From Thermoanaerobacter kivui (GTDB lineage Bacteria > Bacillota > Thermoanaerobacteria > Thermoanaerobacterales > Thermoanaerobacteraceae), in assembly GCF_000763575.1 (NCBI RefSeq), contig NZ_CP009170.1:1079501-1143500 (forward strand): 64,000 bases of DNA, read 5' to 3'. Under the pieces are notes generated by a model, which did no database searches, was not told the origin of the DNA, and saw nothing but the letters and a program-made list of their open reading frames with translations. Each line of letters starts with the position of its first letter. The first letter of the stretch is position 1. Shown piece after piece: positions 36,191-45,720 of this stretch. A program made the position numbers and the translations under genes.

Positions 36191-36517
36191 ATGGCAGAAT
36201 TAGTTATTACACTTGAAAATTTTGAAGAAGAAGTTGTAAATTCAGATGTACCAGTCTTGATAGACTTCTGGGCTGAATGGTGTATGCCTTGTAGGATGGT
36301 GTCTCCAATAATTGACGAATTAGCAAAAGAGTATGAAGGTAAAATCAAAGTTGGAAAAATTAATGTAGACGACGAAAATGAACTGGCAATGAAATTCAGA
36401 ATAATGAGCATACCAACGATAGGACTTTTTAAAAACGGCAAGATGGTAGACAAGATAATAGGTGCAAGACCGAAAGCAGATTTCGTAAAATTCATAGAAA
36501 GACATCTGCAAAATTAA
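36191..36517 (+). CDS. trxA: Thioredoxin with CMPC active site
   Basis: A 108-residue thioredoxin: FWAEWCMPCRMVSPIIDELA near residue 25-45, the cis-proline in MSIPTIGLF near 76, and a terminal helix. The active site reads WCMPC instead of the usual WCGPC, which should alter redox potential or partner choice. AGGAGTGG precedes the ATG. A TATAAT at 36122 suggests its own promoter. It is followed by a terminator. Confidence 0.93.
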   Translation: MAELVITLENFEEEVVNSDVPVLIDFWAEWCMPCRMVSPIIDELAKEYEGKIKVGKINVDDENELAMKFRIMSIPTIGLFKNGKMVDKIIGARPKADFVKFIERHLQN

Positions 36518-36518
36518 A

Positions 36519-36541
36519 AAATCCTGCGCAATGCAGGATTT
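36519..36541 (+). terminator. Terminator after thioredoxin
   Basis: AAATCCTGC and GCAGGATTT pair around GCAAT, followed by TTT. Confidence 0.85.
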
Positions 36542-36631
36542 TTTAATTTTGGCGTCTGAATAAATATAAGAAGAATTGTTTAATTTTCCTAAAAATTAAG
36601 AAAATCGTAACATAATGAGGCATACTCTCGC

Positions 36632-36674
36632 AAAACAAAGAAAACCCTATGTTTAATAGGGTTTTCTTTGTTTT
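36632..36674. terminator. Orphan 19-bp hairpin
   Basis: A perfect 19-bp stem (36632-36650 with 36656-36674) around GTTTA ends in TTTTTT on the plus strand and is A-rich on the other side. It lies 90 bases beyond the thioredoxin terminator with no gene between, so it may close an unseen small RNA or be left from a deleted gene. Confidence 0.6.
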
Positions 36675-44201: not shown

Positions 44202-44621
44202 TTGAGGGTAATGGCATTAGACGTTGGTGATAAAACTATTGGAGTAGCTATAAGTGATCCATTAGGTACGATTGCACAAGGTTTGACAACTATTAAAAGA
44301 AATAGTAACCAAAAAGATCTTGAACGAATAAAAGAAATAGTAAATCAATATAAAGTGGAAATAATAATTGTAGGCTTGCCTAAAAATATGGATGGAAGCA
44401 TAGGACCACAGGGACAAAAAGTCCTAAAATTTGCTGATTTTTTAAAAGAAAATTTTGAAATACCAGTAATGCTGTGGGACGAAAGGCTTACTACTGTAGA
44501 GGCAGAAAGGGTTTTAATAGAAAAAGCTAATGTGAGTAGAAAAAAAAGAAAAAAAGTAATTGACAAATTAGCAGCTGTTCTTATACTGCAGGGATATTTG
44601 GATTCTAAAAAAATTGAATAA
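44202..44621 (+). CDS. ruvX: Holliday junction resolvase-like RuvX/YqgF
   Basis: The 139-residue RNase-H-fold protein has [19 protein letters not shown] at the N-terminus, [15 protein letters not shown] near 65, and [12 protein letters not shown] near 95, with a late [13 protein letters not shown]. The family is linked to 16S rRNA 5' maturation and perhaps junction cleavage. The start is TTG 44202 behind GGGGAGAT. Confidence 0.93.
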
Positions 44622-44637
44622 TTTTTTTGTTAACAAC

Positions 44638-44666
44638 TTGACAGCTAATTTGGTATGTTATACAAT
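44638..44666 (+). promoter_or_regulatory. Promoter of the DUF1292 gene
   Basis: TTGACA (44638-44643) and TACAAT (44661-44666) with a 17-base spacer, 36 bases before the start. Confidence 0.65.
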
Positions 44667-44701
44667 TACATTATCTTGGAGTAGAATTGAGGTGAGATAG
44701 T

Positions 44702-44983
44702 ATGGAACCAGAAATCATTCAGTTAATTGACGAACACGGCCATGAAGTAGACTTCGAACTTGTAGCATCATTTGACCTTGACGATACGAGGTATGCTGTT
44801 GTGGTGCCTGTGGATGGAGATGGAGAAGATGCCTATATCTTGAGAGTGGAACAAGATGAAGACGGCAATGACATCTTTGTAGGAATTGAGGACGAAGATG
44901 AGTTCAATGATGCTGTCGAAGCATACAATGAGCTGATGGAAGAGTATGAAGAGTACTATGATGATTTTGATGAAGAAAAATAA
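44702..44983 (+). CDS. DUF1292 domain protein
   Basis: A 93-residue, very acidic protein with IIQLIDEHGHEVDFELVASF and YAVVVPVDG-DAYILRVEQD, as in the DUF1292 (YrzB-like) family found after ruvX in Firmicutes. The tail YEEYYDDFDEEK is strongly acidic. Its function is unknown. GAGGTGAGATAGT precedes the ATG. Confidence 0.9.
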   Translation: MEPEIIQLIDEHGHEVDFELVASFDLDDTRYAVVVPVDGDGEDAYILRVEQDEDGNDIFVGIEDEDEFNDAVEAYNELMEEYEEYYDDFDEEK

Positions 44984-45001
44984 ATTTGAATTTTGAAATT
45001 G

Positions 45002-45078
45002 ATTAAGATATACCTTTTAGGTATATCTTAATTTATTAAACATATATTTCCTTGGAAATATATGTTTAATAAATTAAG
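45002..45078. repeat. Two overlapping palindromes, one with 25-bp arms
   Basis: Palindrome A pairs 45002-45015 with 45019-45032 (14 bp). Palindrome B pairs 45027-45051 with 45054-45078 (25 bp, perfect, 2-base loop). They share 45027-45032 (CTTAAT), so A and B compete. No T run follows B, so it is not an ordinary terminator. The sequence is nearly all A/T apart from the centres. It lies between DUF1292 and fur. Confidence 0.8.
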
Positions 45079-45152
45079 ATGCTTTTCAATTGAATGTCAT
45101 TTTTTTAGTTGAAAAAAAAGCGTTCTTTCTTTGAAATTGGATTTAAAAATGA

Positions 45153-45181
45153 TTGACAATTGAGAATGAATGTCATAAACT
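45153..45181 (+). promoter_or_regulatory. fur promoter with embedded Fur-type box
   Basis: TTGACA (45153-45158) and TAAACT (45176-45181) are 17 bases apart. The spacer carries an imperfect inverted repeat, TGACAATTGAGAATGAATG followed by TCA, resembling a Fur/PerR-family operator; this suggests autoregulation. Confidence 0.5.
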
Positions 45182-45214
45182 GATATTAAGTCAAGATTAT
45201 CTGGTGGTGGTTTA

Positions 45215-45655
45215 ATGAATGAAATAGAAGAATTTAAAGAGAGATTAAAGAAAAAAGGTTACAAACTTACGACTCAAAGGCGAGTCATATTGGATGTTAT
45301 TATGGAAAATAGAGAAAAACACCTTTCTTCTGAAGAGATATACGACCTTGTAAAAGGGAAATATCCTGAAATAGGATTAGCTACAGTTTATCGCACTCTC
45401 CAGCTTTTTGAAGGATTAGGGATTATTTATAAGTTGAATTTTGACGATGGCAGAAGTAGGTATGAGCTTTATCACGATGAAAATCACCAGCATCATCATT
45501 TAATTTGTTTGAAATGCGGAACTGTAATAGAGATGGAAGGAGATCTCTTGGAAAATTTAGAAGAGGCTATAGAACAGACAAAAGACTTTGAGATAGTAGA
45601 CCACAATGTGAAGTTTTTTGGATATTGTAGTAAATGCAGATCCAAGCACAACTGA
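45215..45655 (+). CDS. fur: Fur-family metalloregulator
   Basis: The 146-residue repressor has a winged helix (TTQRRVILDVIMENREKHLSSEEIY, GLATVYRTLQLFEGLGII), metal histidines in YELYHDENHQHHHLICLKCG, and CXXC pairs (CLKCG, CSKCRS) for structural zinc. A glutamate occurs where Fur has its metal ligand and PerR has aspartate (GDLLENLEEA), favouring Fur over PerR by eye. The start ATG 45215 has a GGTGGTGG site. Confidence 0.85.
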   Translation: MNEIEEFKERLKKKGYKLTTQRRVILDVIMENREKHLSSEEIYDLVKGKYPEIGLATVYRTLQLFEGLGIIYKLNFDDGRSRYELYHDENHQHHHLICLKCGTVIEMEGDLLENLEEAIEQTKDFEIVDHNVKFFGYCSKCRSKHN

Positions 45656-45681
45656 GCCTGTTTATAACGGGCTTAAATTTT
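45655..45681 (+). terminator. Terminator after fur
   Basis: AGCCTGTT and AACGGGCT pair (one G-U) around TAT, followed by TAAATTTTT. It starts at the final base of the stop codon. Confidence 0.7.
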
Positions 45682-45720
45682 TGACTAAAAATTATTAAGA
45701 AATAATTTACATTAGTAGGG

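Follow-up and report, generated by a model that had tools for sequence, protein, structure and literature searches.

We analyzed a window of 64,000 nucleotides (G+C content, 34.5%) from Thermoanaerobacter kivui, the genome of which (G000) is a single contig of 2,397,824 bases. The genome paper of this species gives 2.397 Mbp and a G+C content of 35.06% in its text and 2,397,289 bp in its Table 1 (PMC4320612). The abstract of that paper gives 2.9 Mbp, in contrast to the 2.397 Mbp of the text. The comparison set comprised ten Thermoanaerobacter genomes, namely, G000 and nine others of the genus. Further named relatives were sought by scanning genome contigs, which yielded 7 loci, mostly paralogues. 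The one additional fur orthologue tried, L072, was dropped because the script found no DUF1292 neighbor for it, and L071 was not used.

The DUF1292-fur intergenic region

The genes on the + strand are arranged in the order of an alaS-like ORF (assigned by eye), IreB, RuvX, DUF1292, palindromes A and B, and fur. The features of the region are as follows.

44702 to 44983, + strand: DUF1292 gene, an ORF of 93 amino acids (PF06949, E 6e-18), upstream of the palindromes
45002 to 45032, + strand: palindrome A, 14-bp arms (45002-45015 and 45019-45032) with a 3-base loop, the predicted terminator hairpin of DUF1292
45025 to 45080, no strand assigned: palindrome B, 27-bp perfect arms (45025-45051 and 45054-45080) with the loop TT, lineage-specific and single copy
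45086 to 45100, + strand: TCAATTGAATGTCAT, which partly repeats the fur-promoter element and lies immediately past B, with a putative function
45153 to 45181, + strand: fur promoter, TTGACA-17-TAAACT, conserved in 10/10 genus genomes
45215 to 45655, + strand: fur-family gene, 146 amino acids (PF01475, E 1.1e-39), downstream of the palindromes

The fur promoter is located 70-120 bases past A in all ten genomes of the genus. Its spacer contains a 7-1-7 sequence, TGAGAATGAATGTCA (45161-45175), which we take to resemble a Fur box, and the same position reads TGAAAATGAATATCA in the nine relatives. This putative Fur box suggests autoregulation of fur. The motif CAATTGA within the 45086-45100 element is also kept in 10/10 genomes. 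A search of 44500-45700 against Rfam families (E up to 1) returned sub-threshold matches only, mostly to microRNA families (the best scored 29.6 bits, the cut-off being 100). Such matches arise with any perfect hairpin and were rejected.

The first-pass annotation described two overlapping palindromes between DUF1292 and fur. Both exist, but the figures given for them needed correction: the arms of B measure 27 bp rather than 25 bp, B ends at 45080 rather than 45078, and its overlap with A is 8 bases rather than 6. That B lacks a T tract was borne out, the next bases being GCTTTTCAATTG. Since the 5' arm of B contains the end of A, the 3' arm of B ends in the start of A, and its last bases, ATTAAGAT, repeat the opening 8 bases of A.

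Within the window, no perfect inverted repeat exceeds B in length, and the runner-up has arms of 19 bp. Two 19-bp perfect hairpins were noted at 36509-36551 and 36632-36674, approximately 80 bases apart. When the window was simulated 30 times with a second-order Markov model, the longest perfect arm was 9-13 bp (loop up to 12). Arms of 27 bp are expected approximately 1e-8 times per 2.4-Mb genome, or approximately 1e-6 times with the local base composition. The length and perfection of B are far beyond chance.

Palindrome A and the end of the DUF1292 transcript

A begins 19 nt past the stop codon of DUF1292, and a hairpin occupies this position in 10/10 genus genomes. A hairpin was also present at this position in the nine loci of the same family that were read, often followed by TTTTTT. 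Among loci of the same order, the stem GTATACC/GGTATAC is kept in two, and two others carry an unrelated GTACTC/GAGTAC stem and a T tract. In a set of 14 hand-chosen sequences, changes on both sides were observed in 6 of the 12 pairs of the A stem, and 98.2% of cells were paired versus 85.3% after shuffling and 29-50% for shifted structures. The T tract after A is poor in T. kivui (TTAATTTATT) and weak across the genus, but most other family members have a clear one (up to TTTTTT or more). A was not listed by a simple terminator scan of the window. Since the hairpin is kept in the genus and the family, with compensatory changes and a T tract in relatives, A is the predicted intrinsic terminator of the DUF1292 transcript, which is a known kind of element. 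An E. coli study states that most inverted repeats near gene ends belong to intrinsic terminators (PMC6060812).

The predicted fold energy was -27.3 kcal/mol for B alone (z -9.95) and -16.8 kcal/mol for A alone. When A and B were folded together, the predicted structure contained nearly full B together with an A core of 6-8 bp. A and B had been described as competing structures, and this held in part: the arms share 8 nt, and the full 14-bp A is incompatible with complete B. However, the fold keeps the core of A, and A is transcribed first. The shared bases may be read as a terminator/antiterminator switch for read-through from DUF1292 into fur, because both arms cannot be complete at once. 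However, A emerges earlier than B, which therefore comes too late to block it, and the predicted fold holds B and the A core together. Furthermore, fur is served by a conserved promoter of its own, which lies 72 bp downstream of B, and neither B nor the alternative fold is conserved, both being absent in 9/9 relatives. Given this order of transcription and the separate fur promoter, we consider an attenuator-like switch to be very unlikely.

Distribution and origin of palindrome B

B was absent at the orthologous site in the nine other genomes of the genus, a distribution that fits the recent origin proposed for it in the first-pass annotation. Between ATCTTAATTT of A and the conserved CAATTGA, the spacer measures 52 nt in T. 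kivui, 48 nt in seven relatives, 42 nt in one, and 15 nt in one. Since its length is nearly unchanged, B fills an existing spacer and is not a 56-base insertion. The spacer between terminator A and the fur promoter is otherwise unconserved in sequence. By this comparison, B sits in unconserved sequence between a predicted transcription stop and a predicted start, both of which are conserved.

A second copy of B was not found in the T. kivui genome, in which the best non-self match was 35.6 bits over 24 bases. The weak matches across the genus (best, 38.3 bits) were AT-rich sequences without a palindrome in the 14 stretches examined, five of which were assessed by an inverted-repeat search and the rest by eye and by folding. 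The viral contigs yielded no exact matches to one arm of B. As an intergenic inverted repeat that is long and perfect, B might recall a mobile or dispersed palindromic element of the MITE or REP type. However, above background its own genome gave self matches only, the 14 genus stretches lack the palindrome, the viral contigs hold no exact match to the arm, and there is none of the length gain expected of an insertion. We find a mobile origin, as raised earlier, hardly credible. In the dispersal check on this genome and the genus, the degenerate, dispersed terminator family that would have spoken against the first-pass annotation was not seen; however, A by itself is a typical intrinsic terminator. 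Taken together, the absence of B in relatives, its single copy, and the replacement of the spacer make B hard to reconcile with a mobile element or with a conserved switch or RNA.

Palindromes are error-prone in sequencing, and a single genome represents the species here; we therefore considered whether B is an artefact of sequencing or assembly. However, B has a clean two-base loop and sensible flanks and lies in a single-contig genome, which makes an artefact extremely unlikely. Bacteria generally tolerate palindromes of the length of B (56 bp), and selection, which the first-pass annotation had listed among its explanations, thus does not follow from stability alone.

B may alternatively be a selected RNA hairpin, acting as a backup when transcription reads through a weak A, in 3'-end protection, or in RNase III-type processing of the DUF1292 transcript. 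The very stable predicted RNA fold of B is consistent with such a role, as are the poor T tract of A in T. kivui, its omission by the terminator scan, and the presence of a long AT-rich hairpin after ftsH as well. However, a T tract is missing after B, and 9/9 genus relatives do without a B-like element, even though the T tract of their A is little better. Moreover, B occurs in one genome only and hence offers no pairs for covariation. On balance, we regard a selected hairpin as unlikely.

We consider it probable that B arose by a quasipalindrome-type template-switch mutation in the unconserved spacer, with A as the terminator of DUF1292, and that B has no evolved function. In a template switch spanning no more than a few tens of bases, the replicating strand would have copied a stretch including the 3' arm of terminator A back as its reverse complement. 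The strand would then have gone back to its normal template, leaving the perfect inverted repeat B. We infer this mechanism from two features of the sequence, among other grounds. The 27 consecutive pairs in one lineage point to a one-step template switch, and are not easily reached by point mutation. In addition, copying that continued back into A would leave the opening 8 bases of A at the end of the 3' arm of B, where they are indeed present. Template switching has been described as creating new long perfect stems in other genomes (PMC8794818), and quasipalindromes of E. coli as being converted to more perfect repeats (PMC7202029).

The arms of B were compared with the spacers of eight relatives, G003 being left out because its spacer is too short. 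The left arm gave p values of 0.33-0.92 against shuffles, and the right arm gave 0.25-0.54 in seven of the eight and 0.02 in G007. Neither arm was thus more similar to these spacers than shuffles were, and a separate comparison agreed. The hairpin scores of these eight spacers were ordinary (p 0.46-0.84), and no ancestral quasipalindrome was evident. However, the T. kivui spacer directly downstream of B was also hardly alignable (p 0-0.43). Since this neighboring spacer is almost equally unalignable, the mismatch of the B arms is uninformative and not contrary to a template switch. An attempt to name the ancestral (donor) arm of B failed, as the spacer has diverged too far from those of the relatives.

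Long perfect hairpins in the genus

A sample of 464 kb of the T. kivui genome (the window and 20 stretches of 20 kb) contained 10 perfect hairpins with arms of at least 17 bp (loop up to 10). B (27 bp) was the longest, followed by the hairpin after ftsH (24 bp). Samples of 400 kb contained 5 such hairpins in G009 (longest, 27 bp) and 8 in G001 (longest, 20 bp). Since the samples of all three genomes hold them, long intergenic perfect hairpins are part of this genus. A 27-bp perfect palindrome with zero loop is located in G009 at L126:4607-4660. Its 54 bases are identical in G008, G006, and G001, and changed versions occur in G007, G000, and G004. The region of this palindrome was aligned in 7/10 genus genomes, and the remaining three were matched at one flank only. 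B is less extreme in the context of the genus, and is set apart by the absence of orthologues.

The hairpin after ftsH (L095:18983-19034; G000:C1:2038983-2039034) is present in 10/10 genus genomes, with perfect arms of 24 bp in T. kivui versus 13-17 bp in the other nine. Its 3' flank in T. kivui, GTATTTTA, is exactly complementary to the 5' flank, TAAAATAC, whereas G001, G002, G005, and G007, which share the sequence type, have a T run and then A in place of GTATTTTA. The extension of this stem likely fits a quasipalindrome-type correction in which the T tract was partly turned into stem. The lengthening of a stem in the same genome supports a template-switch origin of B. A broader proposal is that short-range template switching repeatedly turns terminator regions into long perfect hairpins in this lineage, with B and ftsH as cases, and thereby reshapes 3' ends faster than point mutation; this appears improbable to us. 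If template switching at terminators is shown genus-wide, it would provide natural examples of the birth and lengthening of bacterial 3'-end hairpins.

B itself probably has no evolved function. On read-through, it would form a very stable hairpin, which may contribute to RNA 3'-end formation or stability as a side effect. The present results carry a caution: even a striking perfect palindrome of 27 bp can have arisen by mutation in a single lineage beside a conserved terminator. The best explanation of B is a known mutational mechanism, i.e., ordinary biology.

A resembles intrinsic (Rho-independent) terminators as a stem-loop just past a stop codon, with a T-rich tail in relatives and a structure conserved across the family. 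B differs from them in its longer stem, its two-base loop, the lack of a T tract, and the lack of conservation. B shares with REP/BIME or MITE palindromes its nature as an intergenic palindrome, but differs in being single copy, without a family, and without an insertion footprint. B is like template-switch mutations in that it is a perfect inverted repeat in a single lineage, adjoins an existing hairpin, and entailed little change in length; it differs in that the donor arm and the ancestral quasipalindrome were not reconstructed from the diverged spacers.
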